From Loxodes magnus (taxonomy: Eukaryota; Ciliophora; Karyorelictea; Loxodida; Loxodidae), in NCBI GenBank assembly GCA_946699065.1, contig CAMPDV010000233.1, positions 1-64,000 on the forward strand: a stretch of DNA of 64,000 nucleotides, in the 5' to 3' direction. The notes beneath the pieces were generated by a model. It searched no databases, was not told the DNA's origin, and saw nothing but the letters and a program-made list of their open reading frames with translations. Shown in pieces: positions 27,386-50,775 of this stretch (position 1 is the first letter of the stretch; each line of letters opens with the position of its first letter). The translations under genes and the position numbers were made by a program.

Positions 27386-29584
27386 TCAGTCTATATAAAT
27401 GTGGTGTGATAAATTTTAACTTACCTATTACTAGTTATTAGACTGTTCTCCATTCAATATCCTTCCTATATTCCATCTTCGAATGTTGTAATCTTCCGAT
27501 TAGTTATTTCATGCTTGTCCATTGCTCGATAACAACCATTAGTTGTCCCTAGATAATGATAAACTACCCACTGTGTCCGTATGACCCAATAGTACACAGA
27601 TACATTATCCATTATTGATATTTCATATTCTTATGGTCTTGTCATATGATCCAGATAAAATATACTTGTTGTTAGTTGAGAATATTACCGATAAGACATA
27701 AGAGGTGTGTCCCGATAAGACCTTGGTACAAGACAGAGTTCTTGAGTTCCATATACGAATTGTATTGTCAGAAGATCCAGATATGATGTAAGTGGAATCA
27801 CTGGATATAGCCACAGCATATACATAATGTGTGTGACCACTCATGGTCTTACAGGTACCTGTCTTGACGTCCCATAGTCTCACCGTCTCATCTGCACTTC
27901 CCGATACGATGAACTCTGAATTACTGGATATAGCCACGGCATATACCTAATTTGTGTGACCACTCATTGTCTTACAGGTACCTGTCTTGACGTCCCATAG
28001 TCTCACCGTATAATCTGCACTTCCCGATACGATGAACTCTGAATCACTGGATATAGCCACAGCATATACATAACCTGTGTGACCACTCATGGTCTTACAG
28101 GTACCTGTCTTGACGTCCCATAGTCTCACCGTCTTATCATGACTTCCCGATACGATGAACTCTGAATCACTGGATATAGCCACAGCATATACATAACCTG
28201 TGTGACCACTCATGGTCTTACAGGTACCTGTGGCTATGTTGTAGAGTCTTAGAGTTTTGTCAAATGATCCAGAAAGGATTAAATTGGCATCTGAAGAGAT
28301 GGCAACCGAAGTGACTGATGAGGAGTGTCCAGAGAAAATGTGAGGGAATTCAGAAGAGATTGAAGTTAAGTTAGCGTTGGAGAAGTCACAGTTGATGAAT
28401 TTAGAGTTTCTTAGGTTAGCTGATGTTAGATTGGAGTTAGCTAAATTGCAGTTTGTGAAGGTGGTGTCCGATAGATCAGAGTTAGATAAGTCATTGTTCT
28501 GGAAGTTTTATTACGTGAAAATATAGTTCATGAAGTTCAACATTGTTAGAGCGTTAGAGGCTACTTAAGATAATTAAGGCTAGTTTTTGGCTAGATTTAA
28601 TATCTTTATAAGATTTTACTCATTCGTTTCTGATTTTAACTACTCTAATTCAAACAAGTTTTCAATTTTGCTATTAATCATCATTACGTTTAACGGATTC
28701 TTCATGATTAAATTGACATCTATCGCATGATTTTACAACTCATTGAATATCTTCCATAATAGTTGTATGTCAATCTTCTTACTCTGCTATAAAAAATTTC
28801 TCAACTATTACTACTAAAGCTCCTATTCCCTTTATATCTTGAAATTTACTTCGTCTAACCTATCTCTCACCTGAACATACTTTTATTAATTGTTCATTAA
28901 CTAACTTAATAACTGCTATACCTAGTTCACCAACTGCTTTATGCAAAGCTAGTAATGATCAATTGTCCTTTAACTCTTTGCATTTCTTGCTCTTAACTTG
29001 ATGTTTTCCTCGAAAACATTTTAATCAAAACTCAAAAGATTTACTGCCTCAACTTATGCCTTTTAAATTTAACTTTATGCTGTCTCATTTAACTACTCAA
29101 AATTCTGAATAACAACCTTGTTATCACCTGCTTTTAAACTATTTTAAACATCAAGCAATTTAACCCTCTCTTGATTATATGAAACCAATAAAGCTTATAA
29201 ATCTTTTTATATGCTAGAAACATTAACCATATGCTAACTTTCTAAGTCTTACATAACCTTATTCACTACTTGCAGCTTGGCTTTTTTTAAACTTTATAAA
29301 TGAGTATTTAACTCATTCTCATGGGCTTATAATAACTCTAAATTACTTGATATTTGACTTTATTTTACAGTGTACATTAACTTTTCATCACTTTTAAACG
29401 AGACAGGATGCTCCTAAGTAACTTTTCCACAACCTTATATTAAACATTTGATTTACTTTGACTACAAATGCTATCTCTAAACGCATTCATAACACATCTA
29501 ATGACCACAAGGTAGCATCATTGGAATCTTTACTTAATCTTCAAACTAACCCTTACAGTCTTAACATTACATTATTTCAGACAT
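27386..29584 (-). CDS. RING finger, coiled-coil, pentapeptide and WD40 repeat protein
   Basis: The frame is open from ATG 29,584 to 27,625 when TAA/TAG are read as Gln. In order it shows: a RING finger (C7, C10, C26, H28, C31, C34, C47, C52, with PMMLPCGH); a long Q-rich coiled coil (about 60-330); pentapeptide repeats (about 361-410, e.g. SNSDLSDTTF, NLTSANLRNS); and WD40 repeats from about residue 419 with a 41-residue period. Repeats 2-4 are nearly identical in DNA. In the sixth repeat the Trp of TIRI-W is TGA (27,623-27,625). Beyond it the frame continues into another WD-like unit (GHTDTVGSLSLS, then YNIRRWN). I therefore read TGA as Trp here and at 27,509. The true stop is uncertain: TGA at 27,386 or 27,365, or later. 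RING plus coiled coil suggests an E3 ubiquitin ligase with a beta-propeller substrate platform, by family analogy. A nonsense mutation in a decaying gene is the alternative. Confidence 0.85.
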
Positions 29585-30516
29585 CCTAAAAACTTTTTAT
29601 AATTTACCAAAATATACTGAAATTAATAGACTAGATTAAACTACTAAACTTAGAAATAAAACTTTTAAACACTTAAACATCATATAATTAAAATTTATTT
29701 TTTATTAATAAAAAATATATATTTAAAATATTATTTAAAATCCTTTATGTTAGAATTCAAATAATATTATAATTATTTATTCATACATACCAAAATTAAT
29801 ATATAAAAATAATCATATGATAATTCTCTATAAAAAAGTTAATAAAAGAAATATCAAAATAAAATCACTTAAGAAATTTGAAAAATGATAACAAATAACT
29901 TAGTACTAAAAGTTTAAACTAATATGTATTATTTAATAAAAAATTAGATTAAAAAAATTATAAATTAACTAGATAATAAATTCTTAAAATAATATAAAAT
30001 ACAAAGTTCATAATTACGTAATAATTGATATTTAAACAAAATTTAATTAAATATAAAAATTTAAACTACCATTGAAATATTTATTGACATATTTTAAACT
30101 AATAAGGAAAGCTTTAACAAAATAGAAATTTGATAGCTTTAAGGTATGAAAAATAATAAATAGTCTATACTGTATCTCATAAATACTATTAGAAAGATAA
30201 ATAAAAACATATGTGCATTTTTACGAACAATTTAATTTTAATTAAAAAAAAGATATAACAAAAATTTTAAATTTAACTTTACTGAATAAATATAAATATA
30301 AATAAAAAATTATACTTTATTATAACAAAATATATACTTAAACAAGATGATCAAGCCGATGATTGTAATTAAAATATTTAAAAAAAGCAAATAAACTTTA
30401 TGCAATTATATTTGTAATGAAAATGAAATATTTTCAATAAAACTTAATTGTTGATTCTATAAAGAAAATAAAATTAATACTTATAAAAATTAATTAATTT
30501 TAACTTAAAGAGTTTT
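29585..30516. other. AT-rich spacer upstream of the RING/WD40 gene
   Basis: Extremely AT-rich. No repeat or recognisable gene. It should contain the promoter of the minus-strand gene starting at 29,584, but no motif stands out. The last 30 bases before the RNA copy carry aattaattttaacttaaag, which is conserved upstream of other copies. Confidence 0.45.
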
Positions 30517-30793
30517 GGACTGCAACTTCTTGCAATTTAACGACCCCAACACTCCCTTCATGGGATAACGGGGATATCCTGTTGCTTTCGAAAAGCAGCT
30601 GCCAGGGATCTCCATCGCTATGGGCAGCCAGGCTTCAAGCCCCTACCAGGAGTGGAAATCAAGAGGAAGGCGTTCCCTTGCAAAGATAGACTTTGGCCAG
30701 GGACTTTCTCAGCGACAGGAAAGGAACTTGTTCCTAGCCATAAAACCAGAAAATATGATTCAGAAGGTCAATCTCAGATCCCACCATCTTTTT
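30517..30793 (+). ncRNA. Dispersed structured RNA/SINE, copy 2 (subfamily A)
   Basis: It begins ggactgcaacttcttgcaat with a 5' hairpin, followed by an A-box-like tgggataacgg, the gctttcgaaaagc hairpin, the ctgcc..ggcag stem around a gctat loop, the aggaacttgttcct inverted repeat and a 3' ccaccatcttttt T run. A 64-codon ATG frame inside it arises from a 1-nt deletion relative to copy 4 and is not a conserved protein. Confidence 0.8.
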
Positions 30794-31237
30794 AATTATT
30801 ATACTTACTTATAAAAATTTAAAAATGGTTTTTTACATAATTAAAATTTCAATAAAATTTTTAATATAAAAAATAAAAAATAAAAAATAAATTTTTAAGA
30901 TAACAAATAATATTTTATCTTTAAAAATTTTAAAAAACGTACTGAAAGAAATAATAAATTAATATTTTAAAATTAATATGAATAAAATAATTTTATAAAT
31001 TCCAAAAAAAAATCATTAAAAAGGATTTTTATTTTTCAAAACATTTTTAATTAACTTGAAACACTTATTGTATAAATAAGTATAACTAAAAATAGAAATT
31101 CATTTCAGAAATTAAATTCTCATACCTGTAAACTTTACGGATATTAAAAAAATATTTATTACTTGGTAATTATTTTGAAAACATACTTCTAATAAATTAC
31201 CATATAAATATTGAAGATATTTAAATCGAATTATATA
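30794..31237. other. AT-rich spacer
   Basis: Low-complexity A/T sequence. No gene, repeat or structured element is recognised. Confidence 0.4.
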
Positions 31238-31846
31238 ATGGGATTGTGGATATCAGAATACTCTATTATCAATGAAATATATAATTCAGTAATTTTTGAA
31301 TGAAAACTAAATGAAGGTAGCCTAAAGAAAAAAATCTCGGTCCTGTAGATTGAAAATTCTAAAAAAGTTATGGCAGTATACGATGTTATGTAAATAAGTA
31401 CCTAGTATACCTGTGAAATCTATTCTTCACTGAAATACCTCAAGTACTAGTAATTGCATCTTGTAAAAAGTAAAACAAATAATACTTTTATAAATAAACA
31501 AAAAAAATTTTTAGACAAAAATTAAAATTACTGGATTGAGCATTTTGGTTATACAAAAAGTCAATAAATTAATTCCTATCATCTCCACCAAACTCTCTAT
31601 TTACCTTTAAATTATTAGAAAGCCAAAGGTAGCTGTCTGTTTATTTATATATTTATGAGATATTAATTTCATATTCGAGGTATTGAACTTATTTAGTCAA
31701 AAAAAATTTTCAATAAAGGAATATCGATATAATAATTATTGATAATCATTTATAACTACATCAAGAATTGGGAGATGTATTGTAATAATATGACTCATAG
31801 TTATAAGATGCTGTTGCCTTCAACGACTGTGGAGGAGCTTCAATGA
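31238..31846 (+). CDS. Possible uncharacterised protein, 202 residues
   Basis: Under the Gln/Trp code an ATG frame runs from 31,238 (begins MGLWISEYSI) to TGA 31,844, with one internal TGA (FE-W-KLNEG). The first 80 residues look protein-like. The second half is low complexity and overlaps the upstream part of the ML-domain frame, so the 3' part is doubtful. No family is recognised. It may be one exon only, or noise. Confidence 0.25.
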
Positions 31847-32157
31847 CTGCTTCATCACTCACTGTAAGCCCATGGCCAATTAAAGCTGGTGTAAAAGAAA
31901 ATGTAGTTATTACTGGTAATGCTAAGGCATCTTTCACTATCACTAAGGGATTACTCGATGTAATTTTCGCTGGTACAACTATCTTTGAGGATAAACTCGC
32001 TTTTTCAGGATCATGCTCTAGTGGAACAACTTGCAGTGTTACTTCAGTACTTCCCATGCCATCAATGATTCCACCAGGAACTTATGATTTGAAACTCCAC
32101 TTGAAAGACAGTGCTGACAAGGAACATGTATGTCTTCTTTTCAAGGCTAAAATTTGA
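31801..32157 (+). CDS. ML-domain (MD-2/NPC2-like) secreted lipid-binding protein, 5' end unresolved
   Basis: The frame reads DAVAFNDCGG, then SLTVSPWPIKAGVKENVVITG, then VLPMPSMIPPGTYDLKLHLK and ends HVCLLFKAKI. This matches the ML/NPC2 pattern: an N-terminal DCG, the xSPxPxxxG strand, a late PxxxPPGTY strand and a final VC. Four Cys are visible in place of the usual six. Family members bind sterols or other lipids in lysosomes or outside the cell. Translation ends at two consecutive TGA codons (32,155-32,160). The first ATG in frame is 31,843, but conserved residues lie upstream of it, so the signal-peptide part is probably in an upstream exon. The opposite-strand frame over the same bases is a shadow. 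Confidence 0.7.
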
Positions 32158-34010
32158 TGAAGAACTTTAAATTATTTTATCTTTTATTACCTACCTTTTT
32201 AACCTTTTTTCATATAACTCTTATTCTTCCTACCTAAATCTATTAAAATGACAAAAATTATCTATAATTAAGGGTTATCTTAATAAAACGTAATAAATGA
32301 CAATGATGATGATTAATGAAATGGAAGGATAAATTTAGATAGATAGTAAAGCATTAAATAAATATTTGTTTAATATCTTATTAACTCTTCATTTATATCA
32401 ACAGAGTCAAGTAATGTGGCTTCTAGAGATATTAGATGTGATAAAGACATCTCTAATAGATTAAAATGTTCTAAAGCAAAACTTTTAATTTTATAAAGCG
32501 TTAAAAAAGTTAACTTTATTCATAAAATGTTTAAATTTAGTAATTTTCTACCTTTTAGTCATTTATTTTATAATAATTAAGAAAATCCTAGATTTTATAT
32601 TTATTTTTTTATTGTATCAAAGTTAAGAAACCACAACTTAAGTTTTATTTTAAGGCAAAAATATATTTAATAGCTTTCTAAAATAAAGGATGGTGAAGTA
32701 TAACTAAGTAGTTCTATTTTTTTTTTTCAGATTTTCTTTGCTACCAAATTATTTAAATGATTGCTAGATTTTTATTTTAAAAATCTTAGATAGAATAGCT
32801 AAAGATACTTGTTATAATAATTACTAGTCAAGAAAAGTTATTAAAACATTTTATTCTATTTTACAATTTTTTAATGATCTTGTGACTTTGCATTTAAAGG
32901 TAAAGACTTCAGAACATTAAAGATATTGAAAAATAATAAGAAAATACAATATGAAGTTATTAAAGCAAGATAATATTAGAATAAACTGGATTCTCACTAA
33001 TATTCATATTAGATATTTAAATTAAAGATTCCATTAAGTTGCTATATTTACTTGCTATCACTAACTAATTTTTTCAAAGTGTCTCCAAAAGTTTCCTAGA
33101 CATATTAAATCTTTAAACATGCTATTTACATAACTTCTAACTTAATTTAATTGATCATTTTATTACCTCTAATGACATTTATGCTTCAGAAACAGGTTTT
33201 ATAAGTTAGGATAATTCTTAATAGAAAAGAAATAATTTTAATTAATTTGAGATTAGTAAAAATACCAAGGAATTGAACATTTTGAAATATAGCTAATTAA
33301 GGTCTAAAATAAGAAATTTCTTCTTTATAAACTTTTTTAATTATACTTACACTAATTTATTAAACTAAGAACTTATTAATCTAATCTATAAAATTATAGG
33401 AAGCTGAATAACCTATGATTAAGGAAAAGTTAATACAAAAATATTCTAGAGGATTTTTATTAGCTAAGGCACTGCATAAATATTTTCATACTTTAATAAG
33501 CATGGTTACAAAGTAAATCAGATCTAATTAAAAACCATTTAGAAGTTTAAAATTAATATATTTTTTTTTAATTCTAGCGCTTATATAAAGCTTGCGAGAA
33601 ATTAAGTTTTACATACTCAAATAAATAAAATTTTGAATTAAAAAAGTATTATTATTTATTTTTATTATTTTTGAATAAATAATGATGTATTTATAAAAAT
33701 TTAAATAAGATAGACTAAAGTAGAACAATTATAAATTTTTGTATTACATTGATTAAAATAATAATTAAGAAAAAATAAACTTTAGAACTAATAATTTATT
33801 TTAAATTATCAGTATTATGCTGCTAAGTTAATATAATAATCCTAGCAAAATTTTTATTTAGATTTAATATTATTTTGGAATAAAAGGCTATGCATATAGT
33901 ACTTTTAAATCAAATTATTTTATTTTGTAAGGATTCTAAAATTTGAGAGAACTTTGTTAAGAAAAAATGCCAATTAAATTGGATAAATTTTAGGAAAATT
34001 AAGATTATTA
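32158..34010. other. AT-rich region with open but unassigned frames
   Basis: No repeat or RNA element seen. All three forward frames stay mostly open under the Gln/Trp code and give plausible-looking but unrecognisable peptides, so coding here can be neither claimed nor excluded. An N-terminal extension of the SPRY-like candidate could lie in the last few hundred bases. Confidence 0.35.
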
Positions 34011-34682
34011 ATGGCAAAATATGTAATTTTGGGTTCTTTAAACTATGCAATTCAATTTAATCCAGAAAAAATTAAAAGTTAATTTAAGTTAATTAGTCCA
34101 ACTCATATTTATAATACAAATAATGAATCTGGGAATGTTCTTTTAAATATCAAGTTATAGAGAAAAAGTTTATACTCTATTAAATTTGAAGTCAACTGGC
34201 TGATATAATATTGCTATATGAGAATAGGAACTACTGATAACTTTTCTGAATGAAAGACTAAAAGAAATTATTTATTCTCCTAGCCAAATGTTGTGGTCTC
34301 TTACTAGATATGATTTCATAATTAATAAAATCAAAACTTTTATGTATTTAAAATAAATAAAAATATAATATAATATAATAACAGAGCAATTAGATATAAA
34401 TTAAGGAATTTTAAATTTCTAAATTAATGAGGAAAAATAAGGAAAAACATTTGAAAAAATAGATTTTGAAAATAAAGATTTTTACCCGCATTATTTTTAA
34501 ATTTTAAAGGCGATGAGATAAAATTGATATAATCCCTAAAATTCTAACATTAGAAGCTTATACATTAATTTTAATAAATTTTAATTTAAATTCAACTAAA
34601 GTTATAAGATAAATTTAAAATAATATTTGAATCATATTATGTACTCATTCTCTTAAATATAATACAAATAAAATAGAAATGA
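34011..34682 (+). CDS. Possible SPRY/B30.2-like domain protein, 223 residues
   Basis: From ATG 34,011 (MAKYVILGSL) the frame runs to TGA 34,680 with several internal TGA codons read as Trp. Landmarks resembling SPRY domains are FKLISPTHIYNTNNESG, YSIKFEVNWLIQYCYMRIG and FLPALFLNFKGDEIKLI, the last like the usual closing strand of the fold. A second frame over part of this stretch also looks protein-like (GILNFQIN, DFYPHYF), so a frame change or decay is possible. SPRY domains bind proteins and often sit in E3 ligases. The assignment is tentative. Confidence 0.4.
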
Positions 34683-36083
34683 AAGATAAAAACTTAAAAT
34701 TCTTTATAAAGAAATAATAATATTAAACAGTGGATTATTCTCTTATTATATTTATATTAATTAAATTATTATTTTAATAATTTTACTTTTAAATAGTTAT
34801 TGAATTACCTAATTAAAAATAATCCTAAAAAATTATTTTTTTTATTTTAACAGTGATAATTATAAAAAAATGAATCTGGGCTTTTGATCCAGCAAATAAG
34901 AAATTGAGGAGGGAAAAAAGTTCTACAAATAATTTTTCGTCCTTTAAAGTAAAAGAAAAATATTTAAGTTGGAGAATTAGTAATTTTGTATGTTAATTTA
35001 AAGAGAAAATTTTTCATTATTAAAAGAAATTAACTAAAGACAAGAGGAGATATCTATTAAAAGCATCAAAGAAAGAATTATGAAACAGGGAAGATATTTT
35101 TAAACTTAATGGTATAATCAGGTTTAAGGCAAGAACCAAATAAAATTAATAAAAAAAGAAATTTAATCTAGGTAATTAAAACTTACTGAATAAATGCAAT
35201 AATAAATAAATTTCTAAGGCAAGAAAAAGAAATTATAATTAAATTGTACATGGAAGAAATTGAAAATAGCAGAAAATGAATTAATGAAACTTATGGAATA
35301 AAAGAAAAACAAAAAGTTTCAAATATTAAAAAGCATCAAAAGAAATGCTTTTACCACAATTCATCCTATCATTTTTTCAGTAACTATAAAATGTTTTGTA
35401 ATGAAAGGAAGAAAAAGACCAAGAATTGTGTAGATCAATATTAAAAATATAATGAAATAATGAAATAAAATATAGAGGAAGTTTGAATCTCACTGTGCAT
35501 CCTACTATGATTAAATGGAAAACGAGTAAAAACCTATTTAGAAGCAGGTTAGATATAAAACAAGGAAAGTAAAAGAATTTTAAAGCATTACTTTATTTGA
35601 TATCTTATGAATATAAATATTACTTATTTTCACATTAATTTAAAGAATTCATTAAAAAATTAAAATTATTAGAATCCTTATATTTATTATGATGCAGCAG
35701 CATTATATATTATAGAAATTATTAACTATTATTAATGGTTTTAGGATAGAAATATAAAAAAAACATTAACTCAACAACAAAAGAGAAATTAAAATCAGTT
35801 TAAATTAAGCCAATAACTAAGAACCTGCTTATTCAATCATGTAAGTTGTTGAATAATAAGTTATTAGTGTGTAAGTTTAATTTGAGCGAATTTTACTTTT
35901 CGATAGGCAACATTTACACTATGACTACCTGGTCTCAATAGAGAAGATGATACTAATATAAATAATTGGAGGGATAGAAATAATAAAAATAATGGATTTT
36001 TCATTAATAAATTTGATAATAGTTTTTAGATTTTATTTATTTAAAAATAAAAAAGAGAATATTATAATATTTCTTAATAATTG
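34683..36083. other. AT-rich, purine-rich region; unresolved open frame
   Basis: One forward frame is free of TGA from 34,885 to 35,461 and reads as a K/Q-rich, coiled-coil-like peptide, but the other two frames look equally plausible over parts of it. The rest (35,560-36,080) is low complexity. No family is recognised. Confidence 0.3.
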
Positions 36084-36362
36084 AAAAGATGGTGGAAGCT
36101 GAGAATGACCTTCGTGACAACACTTTCTGGTTTTATGGCTAGGAACAAGTTCCTTTCATGTCGCTGAGAAAGTCCCTGGTCAGAGTCATTTTCTGAAGGG
36201 AACACTGTCTTTGAGATTATCCGCTCTTGGTAGGGGCTTGAAGCCTGGCTGCTCATAGCGATGGAGCTCCCTAGCAACTGTACCTGTAGCACAACAGGAT
36301 TTCCCCGTTATTCCATAAAAAGAGAGCGTCAAGTCGTGCAATCGGAAAGGAGTTTCCGGTCC
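36084..36362 (-). ncRNA. Dispersed structured RNA/SINE, copy 3 (subfamily B)
   Basis: On the minus strand it begins ggaccggaaactcctttccg. The 5' hairpin sequence differs from subfamily A, but the pairing is kept (cggaaa/tttccg). The second hairpin is tgtgctacaggtaca, with one G-T pair. The ggcttcaagcccc block and aggaacttgttcct repeat are identical to other copies. It shares the upstream block aatttcaactaaaaaagttt with copy 5. The 72-codon frame inside is coincidental. Confidence 0.8.
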
Positions 36363-37142
36363 AAAAACTTTTTTAGTTGAAATTTATTATAATATTTCTT
36401 CCTTATGTTAATGAATTTGATATTAATAATTAAAAATAATAAATTAAGTTTATGAATATTTTATTATTTATTTAATTTAAAAAATATTATATTTATAAAT
36501 ATTATACATTTATAACATTTGATTTTATCATTTCATTTAAAATTTTTATTTGAAGATTATCTTTAAAAGTTTATTAATTAAAAAATGGTTATAAAAATAA
36601 AAGTTTTAATATTAAAATTTATAAATTTATTTTAGTTTTACTGTTTAGCAAATATTCTTTATTAAAATACATTTTAATTACAAAATTTTATTCTTAAGAT
36701 ATTTAATAATTAATTTAAAGCTAACTACTTGAATTTATTTATAAAAATAGCTAGTTTATTAGAATAATATCAAAATATTTTTACATACTTTAGCTTTGTT
36801 AAACCTTTAATTTATTTAAATAGTTTTTCTAAAATAAATTTTCAACTTAATCCAAAATAACTTTTTCAACTTAAATATTTGGAGTTCTTTAATATGAATA
36901 GTTCAAAGCTTTTTTATTCTTTAAACTTTCTTTTTTAAATTTTATTAATTCGCATTTTTACTCTTAACACTAAAAAATGAAAAATAGTTAGGAAGAATAA
37001 TAACTAAAATTTATATAAAAAAAATATTAAAAAATAAGGTAACTTAAGGAAAATAGTTACTCAGATAAATTTGGGATCGGAATTATAAGATTTGAGCTTT
37101 ATCCAAACTTTTATTGTCTTGATATAAGTTTAAGTAAGCATA
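36363..37142. other. AT-rich spacer upstream of the kelch gene
   Basis: Mostly A/T low complexity. A second forward frame from ATG 36,977 (MKNSQEEQQL) also reads well and overlaps the kelch frame start. It could be an upstream exon in another phase. Confidence 0.35.
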
Positions 37143-37955
37143 ATGAAGCTGAAAAAATATAATATTATGCTAGATTTATGTAAAAAAAGTGCCGAGCTCT
37201 AAATTTACAATCTTATAGATAATTAGTTTCATCAAAAATAAGTTAACAATTTAGCAAGATTATAAAATGAAAATAGCAATATTTTTTAAATAAATAACAA
37301 TCAGATAATCTTAGTAAGTGGTTCTTAAGTTGAAAATAATTCAAATTAAATCATAACTTTAGATTTTGCTTAAATTAAGCAAATTAAAAACTTAAAGTAG
37401 AGTAGAAAGTTTCCATCTCTTGCTTATAATAATAAATATATTTTATATATCATAACTGGTTGAGATAACTAAGTTTAAAGATATATAAATTCATGTGAAA
37501 GCTATAACATTCTTAATGGAAACTAATCAGTATTAAATTAACATCCTTATAAATTGATTTATAATGGAGCTTGCTATGCTTAAGAGTTAATCTTTACGTT
37601 TGGAGGAAGATATAATTATGGTTTATTAGATAAGATATGCTTTTATGATTTAGTAATAAATAAATGATTAGAGCTTAAGAAAGGAATGATTGAATAAGCA
37701 GATAATGCTTGCTCAGTTTTTGCATAGGATATTAAATAAATATATGTATTCGGTAGTAATAGCGACCTAAAAAGTACCAATGTGTTTGATTTTAATAATT
37801 TCAAAGAGCAAGGTAGTTATTTCCCTAGATAATTTAGTTAGTTTTTAAATAATGTAGAATATTAAAATAGAAAGATACATATGTTTGATGCTGATTATGA
37901 TAAAATTTCATGAATTTATGATACTAAGTTATGTAAATAATGGATTAAGTCATGA
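37143..37955 (+). CDS. Kelch-repeat protein, 270 residues
   Basis: From ATG 37,143 (MKLKKYNIML) one frame runs to TGA 37,953. Kelch blades are visible: QIILVSGSQ, ILYIITGWDNQ, LIFTFGGRYNYGLLDKICFYD, and IYVFGSNSDLKSTNVFDF. TGA encodes residues W107 (ITG-W-DN), W175 (VINK-W-LEL, the canonical kelch Trp after the YD strand) and W257. TAA/TAG give many Gln. Kelch propellers bind proteins or actin and are often substrate adaptors of cullin ligases. Only part of a six-bladed propeller is visible, so the protein is short or another exon is missing. The propeller assignment is firm and the start codon is less so. Confidence 0.75.
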
Positions 37956-39506: not shown

Positions 39507-39860
39507 GGATGTCGGCCGCGTCAGATAAATTAGAAGGTAATCTGGTGCAGTGTATACTGCATATCGAACAATCTCGCACTAAATGCCAACACGGGAAGGG
39601 TGGATAAGCTCCGTTGCGACATACCTAACTTACCCTGAGGGTTCTCTCTAGCAGTATGAAAGTTTGACTAACGGGTCTTCTAATTACCGACTTAATAACT
39701 ATCTCTTATTTGGACTTTATTCAAGAAGACTGAAGCACTTGACTCAAGATTTAAGAATAATTTTTAATAAGAAGATTCTTTATTTGGCCAAGCTGACATA
39801 ACTCACCGGAATTCTAGAATTTTAGCAAGAAACATGGAAAATTTTTCTTAATATAAAATA
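39507..39860 (+). repeat. Diverged duplicated element, right copy, with hairpin
   Basis: Second copy of the 39,047 element, about 450 bp downstream. It keeps a clean tgcagt-gtat-actgca hairpin and a GC-rich core (ccaacacgggaagggtgg). It ends just before the 39,878 inverted repeat. It may be a small non-autonomous mobile element or an RNA gene. No family is recognised. Confidence 0.5.
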
Positions 39861-39877
39861 TTAATATAGAAAGAGAT

Positions 39878-39910
39878 GCGCACCAATGAGGTGCTACGCG
39901 CTCTATAATC
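39878..39910. repeat. Inverted repeat, left arm
   Basis: The inner 16 bp tacgcgctctataatc is the perfect reverse complement of 46,554-46,569. Pairing continues imperfectly outward for about 34 bp. The outer part itself can fold (gcacc/ggtgc around a 5-base loop). Confidence 0.6.
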
Positions 39911-40367
39911 ATTTTTATTTATTTATTCATTTATTTATATGAAAAAAAGTTTTGTATTTCTAACTTTATAATAATATACTATTGCTATAGAAAAATTTAA
40001 TATTATTTTATCTACTAAATTTGAGTTTTCTTAAATTAATCAAAGACTTTTATATTTGATGAATAAAATTACTCTATGTTTAAATTTAAATTAAATATTT
40101 TCTAAGTAAATATCATTTAATAAATATTTATACATTTTTATTATTTTTCAGCTTATTTCAAATTTTATATTTTGATGTTTTTGATTTGTGTGATTTAAAC
40201 GTATAAGATTATCTAATAGTTTTCACTTTATTATTTTAATTTTTTCTTCAAGTTTTTAGATCACTTTTATAAATTAGGATCACTATATAATAATGAAAAA
40301 TTCTTTAGTAAAATATCTGTAAATTAACACAATAATTTAACGAAAAATTAACTTTAATGGAAGGAAT
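39911..40367. other. AT-rich spacer with atttatttattc-type simple repeat
   Basis: Starts with a short ttta/ttca simple repeat (39,911-39,945). The rest is low complexity. It should hold the promoter and 5' UTR of the 40,368 candidate gene. Confidence 0.4.
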
Positions 40368-40946
40368 ATGCAAACATTTACATGCTCCTAGCAAAAGGTA
40401 TCTTAGAATTTCTAGGACTAGGAAGAAACAGACAAAAAGGCTACCTAAAAATAGAGCTTCTATATTTTAAGAGAAGCAAATAGACAATAATGCAGCAAAA
40501 AAAAATTAGTTTATCACAACAAAAGTAGAAATGTTAGTTTAGCTAGTTAAAGTGGAACTTAACCTCCAGGAAGAAACCAAAGAAAGATAATAGAAAACTT
40601 ATGGAAAAACTAGAACTGTCTGAGTAAATAAATTCAAGAATAATATCTCAGAGATTTAAACGCTTTCTGGATTATATAATAGAGAAATAATACTTAATCC
40701 TAAAACTAAGAATATAAATAGAGAGATGTGGAAAAAAAATTAATACAGCTAGCAGAAAATAAATTTTAGCTACAATAGTAAATTGACTCGCAAGACAAAA
40801 ATTATATTACAATGATAATAGAAGTAGAAGCAATCAGAAAACCTAAAAGAAATTCGAAAGAAGCTATTGCTGTAATTCTTAAATGCCTCTGTGGAGAAGA
40901 TACAGGAAATTTCTAAATTTTAAACGGGAATTTTGAAAAAAAGTGA
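40368..40946 (+). CDS. Candidate Q-rich coiled-coil protein, about 192 residues
   Basis: From ATG 40,368 (MQTFTCSQQK) one frame is free of TGA to 40,944. It reads as a Q/K-rich coiled coil (VEKKLIQLAENKFQLQQQI) followed by KEAIAVILKCLCGEDTGNF. The frame is in fact open from 40,176. The other two frames break at TGA but also look partly protein-like, so this call rests on composition. The frame continues past the TGA if it is read as Trp, and a 30-nt GTATAA...TTTTAG intron-like stretch lies near 41,040. The 3' end is therefore uncertain. No family is recognised. Confidence 0.4.
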
Positions 40947-42530
40947 TAATAATAATTGAAGTTAAAGAACGAGAGAAGTTTTATGTAAATTTATTAGGAA
41001 ATAATTACAGAAGAAAAAAGCTAGAAACAAAATAAGGAGTATAAAAAATTTTTGAATTTTGATTTTAGCCTCTATGGAACAATCAGAATGTAGGTGGTTA
41101 AGAGATTGTAAATTCCCATAATCCCAAAATTTAATATTATCCATTAGATGAAACTTATCTCTATTTAATTTAAGGAGTTATAAATTAAAAAAAATTTTTA
41201 AGTGACCTTTATTTTTTATATATTAAAAAGAAAAATTAATAAAATTTTAAGTTAAAATATATGAATAAAATAAAATGAAACTAAAACATTTACTAATTTG
41301 ATATTTTAGATTTTCAAAATAAATAGTATAAAAATAAAATTAATTGTTTAATCAACACAATAAAATATAATAATATTTGAAATAAAAAAGATTTCTAAAT
41401 AATTCTTATTATTAAGTAAGTTAATAAAATAGAATATTTTTGTCAAAGAGATTATGTAAAATATTTTATTTAAAGTATAAAAATAAGAAAGTAATTTATT
41501 TAATAATAAAAAGTAAAGTTTTACTTTTAAGAGAAATTATAAGATTATATAATTTATCATATTAATTATATAAAAAATAGACTTTTTCATACAATCTCTT
41601 ATAATAACTATAATAAACTATTTTTATAAAAATATAATCTAAATAAAGTAAATTTTAATCTATTTTATTTTTTATAATTGTTCTATTTAGTAAAAATATT
41701 ATGCTTGTTTATAAACACAACGAAATTTATAGAATTATAAAAATTCTTAACAATATAATATTAAAAATATATAAATCTTATATTAATTAAAGCAATTAAA
41801 ATTATTTATTTATCAAAATAAGAATAAAAAAATAAAGCTTTATATTTAAATATTATATATCATTTTAAATATATTTTATCTTATTAAAATCAAATTATAA
41901 TTATTATTTTTTTGATCAAAATTTATTTAATTTTTATACGATTAAAGAATATATGGTTTAGTTTTTTTAATTAAATAGTACATATTTAAAACTAAATTAC
42001 TTAAATATGAAGCTATCTTACAATTAAATAGTTTCCATTCTAGATATTTTTACTCTTATTTACAACATTTTATTTATTCTACTTAATTAAACTCTTATTA
42101 ATTAAAAAGAAAATAAAATTAATCATATATTTAAAATATTAACATCAGTTTAATAATTAAAAATTTAGTATCTATATTTTAGTAAATAATAAAATTTTAA
42201 GTATTTATTATGAAGCGATCATTTTACTTTATTTATGCATAACTTATAAAATTATTGCTTAGATATTTATTTTAAATATCTTGTTTTAAGATTTTAAGTA
42301 GAATCTTTGATGACTTCTGATTAAAAAATTAACCAGAAACATAAAATTAATACATCATAATTTATTTTTTAATTATATAATTCTGCATTTATTTTAAAAA
42401 TTTAAAGTTTTTATTTACTATTTTTTTAATTTATTAATTTATTAATTTTAACTATAAGGGTTAGGGTCATCTTTAATTAGAGTAAATGTTTCCTCAAATT
42501 AAAGACAATAAAAGTTTTTATATTCAATAC
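40947..42530. other. AT-rich region; 3' part of a neighbour or spacer
   Basis: Between 40,947 and 41,160 both strands carry protein-like frames: the continuation of the 40,368 frame, and a minus frame starting MDNIKFWDYG at 41,144. I cannot choose between them. From 41,160 to 42,530 the sequence is low complexity and presumably includes the 3' UTR of the zinc-knuckle gene. Confidence 0.35.
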
Positions 42531-43382
42531 TCAACTGTACATGTCTTCATCTGAATCAATTTCAAACTGAGATAATTCTTCTTTCTCTTCAATAAGCTCA
42601 TAGAATTGTTCTTCCATCTTCTTGTAATTTTTCTCCAGCTTCTCTAAACAAATTTTAAGGTCATTGTTGTCCTTTTAAAGCTATTTATTCTGTTACTATT
42701 AATTACCAAGATCCTGTTTGATTAATGTCACACTTGAATCATCTAATATCAGCTTCTTTCTGTAAATACCTCTAAAGTAGTTACAATATAGCCTCCTCGA
42801 TGTTCCAAATTATTTACGGTGCTGCTCAAGCACTCTTCTTCACTTCGGACATTACCTCAAAAAATGTCCAGCCTTTTGACAACAATAGCAAAATTTTATT
42901 AAGGGCTTGAATTAAAATTTTTATTCTGCTTACATTTTTTCAATTTCCATCTTTTCTGATTGAAGTTAGTTTTTTTTGATTGGTAATAGAATTTCTTCTT
43001 TAATTTTCTATTGATTTACTTCTAGGTTTTTTTCTAATAGTTCAAATTAGGAAGTTAAGGCTTCAATTTAAAACTAAACTTTACTTACCAAGTCTTGATC
43101 TTCCTTTTTTCTATCTTAAAAAAGAAGCCGAAGATTCAAGTTTTCCGCCTTCTGGATCTATATTTCGGTATTCATTTTCTCAATTAATGAATAAAGCTAA
43201 ATAATGTCTTGCTCGTGGGGTTTCTCAAGCTTTTTCAGTTTGCTAGGAAATTCCGTATTTCCCAATCCCTAACAGGAGTAGATTTATCTTTTTTGAATTC
43301 TTGGCTCTTGTTAGTTAACTGAGACTTAAGATTGATCTTTAAGGTTAGAATTCAAGGTTTAGATTCCCGGGTTTTTTTCCAT
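42531..43382 (-). CDS. Coiled-coil protein with CCHC zinc knuckle, 283 residues
   Basis: From ATG 43,382 (MEKNPGIQTL) one frame runs to TGA 42,531-42,533. It shows a long coiled coil (about 35-155), one CCHC zinc knuckle (C165-x2-C168-x4-H173-x4-C178, seen as CYCCQKAGHFLRQC), a basic linker, and a second acidic coiled coil ending EIDSDEDMYS. An in-frame TGA at residue 181, directly after the knuckle (CPK-W-RR), is read as Trp. Gln is often TAA/TAG. CCHC knuckles bind single-stranded nucleic acid and occur in retroelement Gag/ORF1 proteins and in cellular RNA-binding proteins. Coiled coil plus one knuckle resembles LINE ORF1, but no reverse transcriptase is adjacent. The gene sits inside the 39.9-46.6 kb inverted-repeat segment. 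Confidence 0.75.
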
Positions 43383-43963
43383 TGGAAATTGACCGTGGAT
43401 TCTTGTAGTTCGCATTCTAACAAGCGGAGTTACGCAGTTAATAATGAACACAAAAACTGTTTGAAAGCTTTCAGCTTTGATGGCGAAATCATTCCATTCT
43501 GTTCTCGCCCCTTCTAGCCTTTCTTGAGGAAAGGTAAATATTATATAGGTGGTATTGTAGAGAGAAACAAGAAATTGAACCCTTATGTGGTTTTAATAAA
43601 GCAGACATACGAACCTATTCTAATTTATCTTAATATAATTTTCTTTTTATATTCTGATACTTTTAGTTTATCTAAAATTAATTTAAACTTAATTTATTTT
43701 ACCTTATGAATAAATCTTGCTTTATACCTAATTCCATTTAATCTATTTACTATGATTTCTCTTTTAAGTATTTTCTTCCTTTTTTCTTACCTTCTTGCGT
43801 GCAGAAGATTTTTAACATATTTTTTCATTACTATTCTATTATTTTATTTTTCTTAAATTTATGTATTTGCTTTATTTATGTCTTTTTCATTTTTAATATT
43901 ATCTAATATTGTTTTTGAAAGGAAATAATTTATATTAGAGATTATTATTTTATTTAAAATGGA
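43383..43963. other. Upstream region of the zinc-knuckle gene
   Basis: The zinc-knuckle frame remains open and fairly GC-rich on the minus strand back to about 43,560 (e.g. EWNDFAIKAESFQ), so the true start may lie upstream of 43,382 or an upstream exon may be present. Two short plus-strand ATG frames here look like shadows. 43,600-43,960 is T-rich. Confidence 0.35.
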
Positions 43964-44164
43964 TCATAATAACTTAGTTATAACTATTAATGCATTCAAT
44001 TTCAGAGTTTTAAATTTATATAAAATCATTTCAGTCTATGAAATTTTTCCTTGGATTTGTTGCAAAAATGTGTTTTGAATTAACTCTAATCTTAATTTTG
44101 AGTTTTCTGATTTTAGTAAATCTATCATGCTCATCAAGTCTTGAGTTCGGTTGATACGAAACAT
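43964..44164 (-). CDS. Small coiled-coil protein candidate, at least 66 residues
   Basis: From ATG 44,164 (MFRINRTQDL) to TGA 43,964 the frame reads MSMIDLLKSENSKLRLELIQ and then an FLQQIQGKISQTEM segment, a convincing heptad-like pattern. The frame is open upstream to about 44,292 (NGSSKKASPKKSNSSQQN), so the real start may be further up or in another exon. An overlapping minus frame ending at tandem TGA 44,131-44,136 (CKRCKCFVSTELKT) is the competing reading. No family is recognised. Confidence 0.4.
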
Positions 44165-44887
44165 TTACAGCGCTTGCAAACTTTAAGATTACTGTCTAAA
44201 GTAAAAGAGATTGGTAGTAATATTTTATTAGGAGCTATTAGACTTTTTAGGAGAAGCTTTTTTGCTAGAACCATTTTTATATAATATAACAATTTGACTA
44301 AAATAATAATTAATATAATATTTTTATTAAATATATTAAAATATTTAAAATCATTACTATACAATACTTAAATTTCCAAACCTATTCATAAGTTTTAGTA
44401 TCTTATAATATCTAATATATTGAACCAATTAAAATAAATGCCTTTTAAATGTAAAATTTAAATATTTTATTTATTTATTAATTTTTAAAGGTTTCAAAGA
44501 TTCAAGCTTCTAATTTATAAAAAGGAAACATTAGAATCTGTATTTCTACTAAAAGGAATGTAATATTAAAATAATAAATAGATTAAATAGTTATTTTTTA
44601 TAAATAACTATAAATATTAATAATTTAGATTTACCCTTCTTAAAAGCGTTTATCAACATTCTAATAAATTAAAAATCATAATTAAATATTAAATTTTTAA
44701 AATCTTAACCCTAAAGGCTAATATTATAATGAGGAGTTGTAGTTAATATTTGATTTAAAAAATAGCAAAACTAAATAAGCACGAAAGTTAAAATGTTTAA
44801 ATGATTAATGTAATTTAGTTTGAAGATTCTATATATTTTATTTTATCTTAGAAATATATTTTTTATAACTTTTTAATTTAAATAATT
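44165..44887. other. AT-rich spacer
   Basis: Possible N-terminal extension of the 43,964 gene to about 44,292. Beyond that it is low-complexity A/T without recognisable features. Confidence 0.35.
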
Positions 44888-45165
44888 AAAAAGATGGTGG
44901 GAGCTGAGATTGACCTTCTGAATCATACTTTCTGGTTTTATGGTTAGGAACAAGTTCCTTTCCTGTCGCTGAGAAAGTCCCTGGTCAAAGTCAACCTTTG
45001 CAAGGGAACGCCTTCCTTTTGATTATCCACTCCTGGTAGGGTCTTGAAGCCTGGCTGCCCATAGCGATGGAGCTCCTTGGCAGCTGCTTTTCGAAAGCAA
45101 CAGGATATCCCCGTTATCCCATGAAGGGAGTGTTGGGGTCGTTAAACTGCAAGAAGTTGCAGTCC
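44888..45165 (-). ncRNA. Dispersed structured RNA/SINE, copy 4 (subfamily A, best preserved)
   Basis: Read on the minus strand it has a perfect 5' hairpin (actgcaa-cttc-ttgcagt), a gctttcgaaaagc hairpin, a perfect ctgcc/ggcag stem, the ggcttcaag block, the aggaacttgttcct repeat and a T run at its 3' end. Upstream it carries aattaattttaaacttaaag as in copy 2. A TGA and indels break any frame shared with the other copies, which argues against a protein product. Confidence 0.82.
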
Positions 45166-45313
45166 AAAAATCTTTAAGTTTAAAATTAATTAATTAGTTA
45201 TTATTGAAATTTTAATATAGCATTTATTTAGTTTACTTGCAAAATTAGCATCATAAAGATTTATTTACAATTAAGTTTATAAAAATTTAGTAGTCTTTTA
45301 TATTTAAGAATCC

Positions 45314-45397
45314 TAGCGTATACTTAGCAGCAGACAATAAGGTCAGTGATCTGGGGCGCTAGTTTTTCCGAGCTGGGTTCAAATCTTGCCGCTATCA
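45314..45397 (+). pseudogene. tRNA-Leu-like pseudogene
   Basis: The 3' half (ggcgctag, then gggttcaaatcttgccgct and atca plus a T run) closely follows the intact tRNA-Leu at 56,521. The 5' half is scrambled, although tagcg/cgcta can still pair as an acceptor. The T-arm stem has mismatches and no clean anticodon arm forms. A degenerate or tRNA-derived copy is most likely. Confidence 0.5.
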
Positions 45398-45789
45398 TTT
45401 TTTAGTATTAAAAAGCAAAATTAATGTTAATTGAATTCTTTAGTTTACAATAAAAAAGAATTAATACATGTGCTGGAACAATTACAATCATCTAAACACT
45501 AAAATAATTTTAAATCTAACACTATGAATGATAATACTTTCTATCAATATTAATCCATAAAATCTTATTTTTATATCTTTAAATAAAGTATTTTATTTTT
45601 AGTAGATTAAAGTTAATTAGGCAAAGATATTAATTAGACTGTGGAAAAAGCAGAACATACGATTTAGAAGAGTTTTAAATTACAAATATATCATAAAAAA
45701 TAATTAGTATAAAAACATTCTGAAAAATAATTAAGGCAAAAACTTTTATTATCATGAGCTCATATAATTAAACATAGCATCAATTGGTA
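45398..45789. other. AT-rich spacer
   Basis: Low-complexity A/T sequence. Nothing recognised. Confidence 0.4.
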
Positions 45790-46104
45790 ATGGCACAAGG
45801 AGCCAAACTCAAATCATTATTAAACTATTGAACCCATTGGATCTTTTCGCGAGGTGAATATCCTTTTAATTATTTCAGAAAGATGAGGTTGCGATAAGGA
45901 CGATTGAAGTTTAATCTTTCGCAGTGCTTCATTGGGCTGCTGAATCAAATGTGAACTGACATTACCATAGGATCAGATGAAAAATATCATTTTTCAAGCA
46001 TAGCTACTTATGAAGATACTATGTTCTGTACTTAGAGACTTCTGGAATTCCAAAATCCTGAGCTAATAAACAAGCTAAACTTTTTATCTTAATCTTAATC
46101 ATGA
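45790..46104 (+). CDS. Small uncharacterised protein, 104 residues
   Basis: A locally higher-GC island reads from ATG 45,790 (MAQGAKLKSL) to TGA 46,102 with a balanced composition: FSRGEYPFNYFRKMRLRQG, SDEKYHFSSIATYEDTM, RLLEFQNPELINKL. Two internal TGA codons are read as Trp (NY-W-THW, NQM-W-TD). No TM segment or signal peptide. No family is recognised. The GC rise over the flanks is the main support. A structured RNA is the alternative. Confidence 0.45.
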
Positions 46105-46553
46105 ACTTTTAATAATTAATTTAGTTTTATATTTCATTTTATTCATAAAGAAGGTGATATTATATAAAATTAAATTATGAACAATACTAAAAAACTTTGA
46201 TCATAAAAGTATTTATTTTTTTCTAATTGATTAACACCTTAAATAAATTAAAATTTTTAAGGGAATTTATTTTTTTTGGTTTTTTTACTTTATTAATTTT
46301 TAATGCCTAATTTTAGTAAAAATTTAAAATTCTAAGAACAGCAAATCTGCCTTATGTTGAATTAATAACTAATTTTATATTATTCGCTTATTATAAAATG
46401 ATTTATAAAATTACTAGATAAATTAAATTTAAATTTAAAATTATTCTTCATAATAAATGTATAGCCTCAGATTTATCTTTATGACATAATTAACTCAAAA
46501 TGACCAAAAATAATTTATAAAAATACTTTTAATTAAAATAAATAAATAAATTG
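46105..46553. other. AT-rich spacer
   Basis: Low-complexity A/T sequence. Nothing recognised. Confidence 0.4.
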
Positions 46554-46587
46554 GATTATAGAGCGCGTAGCCCTCTTGTTGGTACGC
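46554..46587. repeat. Inverted repeat, right arm
   Basis: gattatagagcgcgta is the exact reverse complement of 39,895-39,910. The outer part (ccctcttgttggtacgc) is an imperfect match to the left arm. Confidence 0.6.
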
Positions 46588-46599
46588 AGCTTTAAATTA

Positions 46600-46910
46600 A
46601 TTTTATTTAATGTCGAAAAATAAAATTTTATGGGTCTCTCTATCCTTGTTTTCTCTTCCTGCAGTACGTTCCTGTAATTTTTCCTTCCAAAGCATAGGAT
46701 GAAATATGCGATTACGGGCAGATTTCCCCGACCTATGATGAAGAAAGTATCCTCCTGACAGTCAGAGTTCTCCCGTTTTTCATATCATCTTCTCTTGTTA
46801 TTTGTTTCTATTCCTCCGATTTACCCTCCACCTGCGATCATTTTTTTGTTGCCTTACTGGGCCTCCAAGTAGCATTCGAAGGAAAGGGCTTTCCACCCTA
46901 TTTAAAATAT
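46600..46910. other. GC-rich island of unknown nature
   Basis: About 300 bp far richer in GC than its surroundings, directly outside the right inverted repeat. The plus strand has an ATG frame from about 46,631 (begins MGLSILVFSS) that stays open with one TGA, and the minus strand is also open. It ends with a gaaaggg/ctttccaccc block. It could be a small gene, a structured RNA or the end of a mobile element. The left inverted repeat has a GC-rich block in the matching outer position (39,507-39,860), but the two are at most weakly similar. Confidence 0.35.
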
Positions 46911-47043
46911 ATTAAATAATAAAGCATAATCCTGTGAAGTTAGTATAGATATAAGAATTAAATATTAATAATTAGATGATTGCTATAATTATATTTCCTT
47001 TTAAGATTAATATAATATTTAATTTGAGTGTTTTAAGTTAAAA

Positions 47044-50000
47044 TCAATCAGAAATTTTAACTTCCTCTTGTTGCTTTATATCTTGTTCTTTAAAATCTTG
47101 ATTCTTCAAAATTAAATTATTACTCTGATCAACAGTTTAATTAAGAATCTCACTTTATTCAATGAAGGATTAATAATTTTTTTAATTTTATATTTTATCC
47201 TTATTTAAATTAAGATCTCCTTCAATCTTACTTAGCTTTTATTAAAGAGCTTGCTTTGAGAAATCTTGCTAAGTAGTTTTATATAAATTTTATAAAGCAT
47301 TTTACTATTGAGAAATAGACAATGAAGAGACTGAACTCTTTAAGCTAAGTCTTTATATTCTATTTTTTTGAGTATTCAAATGATTGCTTAGCATACTAAC
47401 TTTTGAGTTACATTTATAAGCAAATCTAAACAAAGTCACAGTATCAATCTGATCCTCTACTAAGTATTTAGGATAATATTTCTTTATTGTATAAACTGAG
47501 TAAGTAATAGTGAGACAAGCAATTATCAAAAAAATTAGAATAAAGACGAACTAAGAGTAACTGTTTCAGAGTAGTGACAAAGATGTAAAGAAATAAAGCA
47601 TAGATATGATAAATAAAAGAGTAACTGCAATTATATTTGCTCTTTCATAGGTATAAGGTTTCATTCTAAAGGTAATGAAAGTATGTATAAGTAAGAGGAA
47701 AGTAACTGTAAAGCCATGAGCTATTTGACTGTATTTCTTAAGTATTTTATTGATGCAAACTAAAATTAGCTGTATCTGCATTTTAATTAAAATACTTAAA
47801 GGCTTTTCTTTTATATGCAATGCAGCGCTCTTCATATCTTATCAATGAGGTCTAGATAGAAAAGTCAGAGGCAAAAATAAGGTAATACTCAGTACAGATA
47901 AGAAAGCTTTATACTTATATTCAGAAGAACTACACCAAAGGAAACAATCTTTGTCCATAAAAGATTCTTCATAATCTATTTTACCATCTAAGTTCTCATC
48001 CAAACCTTAAGTACACATAAATATTTCAGTCAAAACAAATAAAATAGGCATGTATAATAATTCTCCGATTAAAGGAAGCAAAAGAAAAATAAAAAATCCA
48101 ATAACTCTTGAAATTAGAGCATCAAACCTTATTTCTAATTTAAAGAAAAAGCTTAAAAGAAGAAATAGAAATATCATTACTATAGCAATGCATATTCAGA
48201 AAAAGTTACTATAAAGATGTCTATCATTTATATTTAACAATAAAAGATTTATTGCTATATCTAACTTTTCATTCAAATCTTTTAAACTAGGACCTAAAGC
48301 TATATATTATAAATTAAGGAGTAGTAAGATAAAAATTAATAAATCATCTTCCATGGTTTTTTCTATATAGTCTGTTATTTTTTAATAAACTCTTTCTCTT
48401 CAAATTTTTTTTCCTATTATTAATAAAATAAAGCCAATTAATATAAAACTAATCATTATTATATCTGAAGTTAACTTTCCCTATCTATAGTCCAATAAAT
48501 GTCTTTTTGTGAAATCACAATCTTTATATTAGTCAAAGTAATCTTTTGGCGGTTCTATTGTTTTCTCGAAAAATAAAATATTAGTTTCGAAATCCCATAT
48601 GATGGCACATCCAGGACAGTATTTGCCGTTATAGTAAAAGTCATAGTAATCTGTTTAATTTGCAAATAGACTTTTGAAAAGGAAGTTAACATTTGTTCTA
48701 AAATGATTTTTGAATTGCACTCTTCCACTACATCCAATAAAATCAACGTTACTAATGGCTTAATAAATAACTTAAGGATCTTCAAAGTCTAAACCTTAAG
48801 AAATTATTTTTTCCATTGCATGAGCGACTATATAAGACTCTTCATAAAAGTAGCACTAATAATCTGGTAATATCAACTATGTACATTGTTTAGCTTAGTC
48901 ATATTATTTTTGTCCTATTTCGTTTTTTCAGGCTATAGGAACTATATTTATTTAGCTTCCTGGAAAAATTTTCATCATTCATTCTGTTCCATAATTTTTA
49001 GATTAATTACTATAAATAACGTAATTTCCATTGCTATTCCCTATTCAAATCAGGTCTTCCTTTTAACCTCCTAATTTATAAAACTGATAGCCAATTTCTA
49101 CCTGAGATTCAAGTCAGGAGAGGCAGACAATTATTCTTATTTACTTTTTTAAGATATCCTCAGCTATATCTCCATATATTTTAAAATGACTATCCAAATC
49201 TTTACTACGAAGCCATAATCATTCGAAAATTTTAAAATTAGGGTTACTAATTATCTATATCTAATAAAGTTAAGCTTGCTTTGTAATATAATCAGAAATA
49301 GCTATATATTCTGGTATGTTCTCAACATATAATCCTATTTACTTTCAAGAATTCTTGATAATAAACCTCACTATCACTTCTGCAAAATCTTCAGAATTAA
49401 CATAATTATAGGTTATATCTTTAAAACCATTTTTAAGAGCTAAGTCATCATTAGTCACTATTAAAAAAGAAGGGATTTTTACTTAGAACTCTTAAAGTAT
49501 CTAAATAGTATCTTATATTGTTTAAGAAGTTCTAACCACATGAGCTGATCCTAATTTATCCTAATTGCTTATTAAATGCTAGATATAGTATTCTCTATTA
49601 AATATCTACTCACTGTATTCAATTCCCACTGCTTCAAAATTATAATTACGAAGTATATTGCTGGAATATTTTACATCCTAAGCTCCACATCATACAGTTT
49701 TTTAAATTTAGAAGCTTAAAATGTTTTGAATTCCATTATAATCCTGGAAATTAGTACTGTAACTGAAAGTTAAATTTATTTTATTAGGAGGAGGAGATGT
49801 AGAATTTCCAGGTCATATGATATCATAAAATTAAGTAACTTAGGCTTAATTTATTTAATGTGTTAAGATAATTTCTGATTCTCTTTTGTTATATACTGAA
49901 ATCTTATTTAGTTCTTAATCTTAAATTCCAATCTAAAATAAATTAGATTTAAAGTCATTTGCTTGCTCTTTATATCTTAGAATATTTTCTAATTATTTTC

Positions 50001-50775
50001 CTAAATAGCTTCATACTCATTGCTTGTAAGTTTGCTAATATTAATCTCTAGAGTTTAAACAAATTATCTAAGTAAAAAGACTATCATCTTTGCTATTCGT
50101 AAAACTTGATTGAATAGGTAGGATTCAGCCATATCCTTTCTAATATAATTTAGCTTGCTTAGCTGTTTATATAATATTTGAAGCTGACTATAAGTTAGTG
50201 CTAAGTATGAATACTGAGGCTCCAGATGATTTGATAAAGGAAACTAGTTATTGTCTATTAAATTCTGATTTAAATACAAAAGTACTTTTAATATTTGTTT
50301 ATTCTAAGTAATTGATTGTTCAGGTATGTTTATAAGTTTCTTAGTGAATAACTAAAATATTTTACAGATTGTGATAGTCTAAAAATGCTTAAATAGCCTA
50401 TCCTTCTAATTAATAGCTAGGTAAAATCTAAAAGCTGTACTAGTATTTTTAAGTTAGTTATTCTCTATAGCAAATTAAATGTAATATCTTTCTCTAGTAG
50501 CAGATTACTTTTAATATATTTGTTATTTATTTATTCTCAGTAGCATCTATTATTATTTCTCTCCTACTTATATTTAGACCAACTAACTTATCTAACTTTG
50601 AGATTTCTTTCATTTCAATTTCCTAGATTTAACTCTATCAATCTTACATTTCTAAATATTCTATCTACTATTAGAGAAACCATCCCATTTCTCTTGTCTC
50701 CTAAGTAAATATTATTAATCAACTATGAGCTAAAGCAACTTAGGATGCTATTGTTAAAAATAGAAATTCTAGCAT
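47044..50775 (-). CDS. Receptor with two periplasmic-binding/ANF-type domains, multi-pass membrane region and Q-rich tail, 1,243 residues
   Basis: One unbroken frame runs from ATG 50,775 to TGA 47,044. It starts with a signal peptide (MLEFLFLTIASQVALA). A first ligand-binding-type domain (about 90-300) includes the SGASVFIL strand and GYGWILP with W217. A second (about 400-720) includes NSWKQIGLYVE (W477), IRIIVCLSWLES, LIWIG (W577), then EESYIVAHAMEKII and VDFIGCSGRVQF, close to the ANF-receptor/class C GPCR fold. About seven or eight membrane helices follow (about 770-1105), with an EF-hand-like lumenal or extracellular loop near 925 (DENLDGKIDYEE). A cytoplasmic Q-rich tail ends VKISD. At least 18 Trp are TGA against about 4 TGG. 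By analogy it is a surface receptor for a small ligand. The signalling partner is unknown. No intron is needed. Confidence 0.85.

Follow-up and report, generated by a model that had tools for sequence, protein, structure and literature searches.

The subject of this analysis is the reading of TGA in a 64,000-nucleotide stretch of Loxodes magnus DNA (the window), which forms positions 1 to 64,000 of contig CAMPDV010000233.1 (C233) in assembly GCA_946699065.1. Here TGA occurs both inside genes and at their ends. Comparisons with the rest of the genome cover the whole assembly (705,730,643 bases in 7,843 contigs). The macronuclear assembly of this species has been described as 706 megabase pairs (Mbp) long, 231 Mbp of which are tandem repeats (Seah et al. 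2024, PMC11441545). The protein-coding features of the window that bear on the question are the following.

27386–29584, minus strand: WD40 gene with a RING-like start; its stop codon is probably 27386–27388, possibly 27365–27367
27623–27625, minus strand: TGA where a WD40 repeat would have its closing Trp (DKTIRI-TGA-NI)
31813–32160, plus strand: ML-domain stretch, ending in a tandem TGA TGA (32155–32160)
37296–37955, plus strand: kelch stretch with in-frame TGA at 37461, 37665 and 37911 and a terminal TGA at 37953–37955
42531–42890, minus strand: 3' part of a zinc-knuckle gene, recognized by its CCHC pattern only; internal TGA at 42840–42842, terminal TGA at 42531–42533
47044–50775, minus strand: receptor gene, 1,243 codons long, with two ANF-receptor stretches and a terminal TGA at 47044–47046

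With the standard code, no stop-free stretch of 200 codons exists on either strand of the 64 kb. This result bears out a warning in the first-pass annotation of this DNA, and it has a practical consequence: annotation with the standard or the Tetrahymena code would lose or split the genes listed above. Read with TAA and TAG as Gln and TGA as Trp, four of these genes return Pfam matches to WD40 (3.3e-73), ANF_receptor (6.8e-15), Kelch_6 (6.4e-7) and the ML domain (2.2e-5). A codon-usage segmenter recovered the WD40 gene and the ML stretch, missed the receptor and the kelch stretch, and was dropped.

The first-pass annotation had placed TGA at family-conserved Trp positions of the WD40, kelch and receptor proteins (two sites in the latter), and all four codons are indeed TGA in the frames claimed. 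In the WD40 gene, TGA occupies two Trp-like sites (27623–27625 and 27509–27511), and the closing position is TGG in five other repeats (28118, 27995, 27872, 27749 and 27473). The kelch Trp site is the TGA at 37665–37667 on the plus strand (INK-TGA-LEL). In the receptor, the frame running from 50775 to 47047 on the minus strand holds 18 internal TGA and four TGG codons, exactly as the annotation had estimated, and it needs no frameshift. The number of TGA codons is itself no greater than chance, since each of the five remaining frames across this stretch has between 15 and 37 per approximately 1,242 codons.

Searching the genome with the receptor returned 38 matches including the gene itself, every one of them with internal TGA. 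Some of these matches are pieces of one gene, and 30 loci were obtained. Full-length frames with 9 to 21 TGA codons recur among paralogs at 34–49% identity. The gene occurs at four places on C233 (47047–50775, 105703–109037, 158667–161999 and 211889–215602), spaced by approximately 50–60 kb.

For a codon-level comparison we aligned 29 receptor loci with TAA, TAG and TGA masked as X; the fragment L033 had been left out beforehand. Seven close copies (L010–L015 and L036) were then removed, leaving 22 rows for the tallies, in which the window gene faces 21 distant paralogs. Three TGA codons of the window gene illustrate the outcome.

49345–49347, minus strand: TGA at a Trp site, KNS-TGA-KQ; 9 TGA and 13 TGG in the alignment, i.e., 22 of 22 rows with one or the other
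49045–49047, minus strand: TGA at a Trp site, EDLI-TGA-IG; 14 TGA, 5 TGG, 2 Phe and 1 Leu
50125–50127, minus strand: TGA at a Trp site, GYG-TGA-ILP; 18 TGA, 3 TGG and 1 Cys

Sixteen columns consist of TGA and TGG to at least 60%, and together they contain 206 TGA, 111 TGG and 35 other codons, in agreement with the earlier proposal of Trp. The codons that partner TGA and those that partner TGG are nearly the same (TGA 41.9 and 41.3%, TGG 22.4 and 24.6%, respectively). TGG appears in at least one of the 21 distant paralogs in 14 of the 18 columns where the window gene has TGA, and in 40 of 1,130 columns with other codons. At a threshold of at least three paralogs, the numbers are 13 of 18 TGA columns versus 7 of 1,130 columns of codons other than TGA and TGG (Fisher p = 7e-22, an indicative value because the aligned rows share ancestry). 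In contrast to their number, the positions of the TGA codons thus exceed chance. When substitution profiles are compared, TGA is closest to Trp (r = 0.989), followed by Tyr at 0.137. The profiles of TAA (0.967) and TAG (0.981) match that of Gln, with Glu (0.674) and Lys (0.664) next, in line with the earlier assignment of both codons to Gln inside genes. In this family, the two codons TGA and TGG stand in for each other at Trp sites.

TGA is also the codon with which conserved proteins end. The earlier claim that it terminates the kelch, ML, zinc-knuckle and receptor genes holds at the coordinates listed above, and the terminal KISD-TGA of the receptor stands at the same place in all four close copies with an intact end (L009–L012). 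Three of three actin genes that were read end with HRKCF-TGA; KCF is the usual C-terminus of actin. A search with the TGR model gave ten matches, five above the cut-off (L086–L090), and all five of these thioredoxin reductases end with TGC-TGA-GGT-TGA. Both copies of the eRF1 gene terminate with TGA. Thus, TGA is found at all 14 gene ends examined, from four families (receptor 4, actin 3, thioredoxin reductase 5, eRF1 2). Past its stop codon the receptor also diverges from its copy L011, with 99 differences in 514 bases versus 129 in 3,729 coding bases. Gaps in L011 and L012 occur only past the stop; gaps ahead of it are present in L010 (15 bases) and L013 (one base). The flanks of the internal TGA codons are alike on their two sides (26 and 25 differences of 810 for L011; 23 and 29 of 810 for L012).

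The two eRF1 copies both lie on contig C196. The first-pass annotation had pointed to eRF1 as a place for substitutions. Compared with human eRF1, GTASNIKS is changed to GRAQNIKS and INTSLYLCDNKF to INTTFFLCENTF. NIKS is thus kept, and the first Tyr of the YxCxxxF motif is Phe. All four Trp codons of eRF1 are TGG in both copies. Among 96 actin matches, no TGA is listed for the 44 best, and 43 of these are apparently copies of one gene (many of them on contig C266), which count as one case rather than 43 because they are near-identical. In the three actin genes that were read, all four Trp codons are TGG, and several actin relatives carry TGA. The absence of UGA-encoded Trp from eRF1 and from the main actin genes may be a new observation.

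We turned to the tRNAs that could read these codons. On chosen loci, ARAGORN confirmed tRNAs with UUA (4 of 4) and CUA (3 of 3) anticodons, which this program labels Stop and Pyl, respectively. Their tRNA bodies and the codon data suggest that they carry Gln. A pattern search for tRNA-Trp(CCA) returned 201 matches in the genome. Among the 100 matches listed, 48 belong to an array on contig C67 with a period of approximately 187 base pairs (bp) and 27 to an array on contig C148 (241 bp); the part of this contig that follows contains 28 copies, one of them counted before, which brings the array copies to at least 102. In a DNA search with a tRNA-Trp query, 40 of 174 candidates were scored, all of which match the query exactly and lie in C67. 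Each of the 37 array copies that were read has positions 27 and 43 unpaired (A·C or U·C), leaving an anticodon stem of 4 bp. A copy on contig C110 has a 5-bp anticodon stem. Trp is not alone in having tandem tRNA arrays, as a CUA tRNA forms an array of 16 copies spaced by 588 bp on contig C130.

This form of tRNA-Trp is already known, because tRNA-Trp(CCA) with a 4-bp stem has been identified in Loxodes and raises UGA readthrough in reporters of other organisms (PMC13092985). The system described there for Blastocrithidia and Condylostoma resembles ours in its CCA anticodon, in the unpaired 27:43 position and in that no tRNA-Trp(UCA) was found. It differs in that here the gene is arrayed in tandem, with at least 102 array copies beside one 5-bp copy among those read. 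The excerpts of PMC13092985 and a literature search contain no mention of such arrays, which may be new.

As a whole, these observations are best explained if the nuclear DNA of Loxodes is read under NCBI code 27, in which UAA and UAG mean Gln and UGA means Trp inside genes and stop at their ends. On sequence evidence we hold this to be very likely. UAA and UAG would be read as Gln by the tRNAs with UUA and CUA anticodons. Internal UGA would most likely be translated as Trp by the amplified tRNA-Trp(CCA) that lacks the first anticodon-stem pair, a role suggested by analogy with the reporter data, UGA being a near-cognate codon for it. The last UGA would be recognized as stop by eRF1, probably since the poly(A) tail is near. 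This proximity rule is taken from the literature: Loxodes has been assigned to table 27 with UGA as its sole stop codon, which is also read as Trp at a sufficient distance from the poly(A) tail (PMC11441545). The codons, the gene ends and the tRNA set agree with that description, and the context-dependent code of karyorelicts that the first-pass annotation had proposed fits the data. For Loxodes and Parduczia the published code (PMC11441545, PMC4967479) is the same as in the window, without any difference. The observation and its interpretation are right, and the genetic code is already known for the group.

Several points weigh against this reading or open the way to others. Four of the 18 receptor TGA codons (codons 19, 46, 152 and 1070) lie in columns without TGG among the 21 paralogs. 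When each of the 20 residues is placed at TGA, the Pfam score of the receptor is higher for His (62.8 bits) than for Trp (57.8), which is followed by Tyr (54.8); this scoring is not decisive and was not used as proof. The divergence of the receptor already climbs within the last 270 coding bases, and the drop in constraint therefore fails to place the stop sharply. Finally, substitutions between the receptor and L011 are even over the codon positions (45, 36 and 48) with no third-position excess, so that the close copies reveal little protein-level constraint; it is the distant paralogs that carry the argument. The same lack of third-position excess, together with the broken frames of two receptor copies on the same contig (L013 and L014), would suit a reading as pseudogenes under the Tetrahymena code, where every TGA is a stop and the internal ones are decayed TGG sites. 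Decay is difficult to reconcile with full-length, TGA-rich frames recurring in paralogs as distant as those described above, with TGA being placed on Trp columns, and with L011 and L012 being identical to the receptor at every base of its 18 TGA codons. Besides the receptor, TGA also lies within SepSecS, thioredoxin reductase and a number of actin relatives. We give pseudogenes practically no chance of being the explanation.

Internal codons cannot separate code 27 from the Condylostoma-type code 28, because TAA and TAG as Gln and TGA as Trp are common to both. Under code 28, UAA and UAG would end genes as well, and UGA would be one of three context-dependent stops. Neither TAA nor TAG terminates any of the 14 genes examined, which represent four families only, and the L. 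magnus paper has UGA as the sole stop (PMC11441545). We hold code 28 to be very improbable here. A different alternative leaves code 27 in place and has UGA-Trp decoded by a tRNA-Trp(UCA) that is imported or escaped detection, instead of the 4-bp-stem tRNA-Trp(CCA). Ciliate mitochondria do encode tRNA-Trp(UCA) (PMC4967479). The first-pass annotation had also named this tRNA, which was not found: a pattern with the UCA anticodon gave 74 matches genome-wide, compared with 406 for the backwards control, and although all 74 loci carry the pattern, ARAGORN recognized a tRNA in none of them. Unusual tRNAs would escape this pattern, which allows no intron and requires both a purine at position 37 and a GTTCRANYC T-loop. 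Given the high amplification of the 4-bp-stem tRNA-Trp(CCA) and the increase in UGA readthrough that this form brings about in reporter assays of other organisms (PMC13092985), we consider decoding by tRNA-Trp(UCA) unlikely.

Under code 27, UGA probably has a third meaning in Loxodes, namely selenocysteine (Sec). Among 52 tRNA-Sec matches, three genes exceed the Rfam gathering score and have UCA anticodons, and the genome also encodes SepSecS.

C30, 829388–829473: tRNA-Sec gene (L081)
C6, 804625–804710: tRNA-Sec gene (L082)
C6, 164898–164983: tRNA-Sec gene (L083)
C53, 630645–631820: SepSecS gene (L085), a single match (1.9e-104)

The SepSecS gene itself contains an in-frame TGA (KYVL-TGA-PRID). 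The three thioredoxin reductases that were read whole (L086–L088, of which L086 and L088 are nearly identical) contain two in-frame TGA codons ahead of the terminal TGC-TGA-GGT-TGA. In L087, both of these earlier codons lie opposite Trp residues of thioredoxin reductase 2 (1zdl). Its third TGA lies opposite the Sec position, which is Cys in that chain. Among the five weaker TGR matches, two tails were read, both without the TGC-TGA-GGT-TGA end. The 3' tails of four of four thioredoxin reductases fold better than their shuffles (z between -2.48 and -5.99) and share an invariant GTGA. For the selenocysteine insertion sequence (SECIS), Rfam gave no match at E values up to 10 on L086–L088, and a scripted core scan of five tails produced one hit, which was not at the invariant GTGA.

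Judged from these frames, UGA would probably mean Trp, Sec and stop within one thioredoxin reductase gene, with the Sec and stop codons two codons apart. This triality of UGA, thioredoxin reductase included, has been described for Condylostoma magnum and Parduczia (Swart et al. 2016, PMC4967479), and UGA as both Trp and Sec for Blastocrithidia (PMC12153298) and Amoebophrya (PMC6394959). With Condylostoma and Parduczia, our case shares the presence of tRNA-Sec and a Sec-UGA beside the stop codon of thioredoxin reductase (PMC4967479). In contrast to those examples, it concerns Loxodes, with two Trp-UGA, one probable Sec-UGA and a stop UGA in one frame. The selenoprotein case in Loxodes may be new; a literature search found Loxodes and selenocysteine together in a single paper, a review from 2015.

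These considerations can be joined into one proposal, for which we see the chances as evenly divided. UGA would mean Trp, Sec and stop in single genes; its reading as Trp would be sustained by the dosage of the arrays, at least 102 tRNAs with a 4-bp stem, next to which a 5-bp copy would suit UGG; and genes whose translation must be heavy or accurate, such as the main actin and eRF1, would keep UGG. A gene in which UGA means Trp, probably Sec, and stop within approximately 490 codons provides an internal test of the code. The coexistence of 4-bp and 5-bp tRNA-Trp could make the roles of tRNA structure, SECIS and mRNA position separable in one organism.

At the start of the window, the first 25.4 kb (1–25423) form a single tandem-repeat array with a period of approximately 79/167 bp and a strong excess of C over G. 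Four GC-richer stretches (approximately 25634–25867, 30510–30790, 44897–45166 and 55877–56110), alike and found on both strands, look like copies of one dispersed repeat. Two RNA genes also lie in the window.

53667–53818, minus strand: U3 small nucleolar RNA (RF01848, 75 bits)
56521–56600, plus strand: tRNA, identified by ARAGORN as tRNA-Leu

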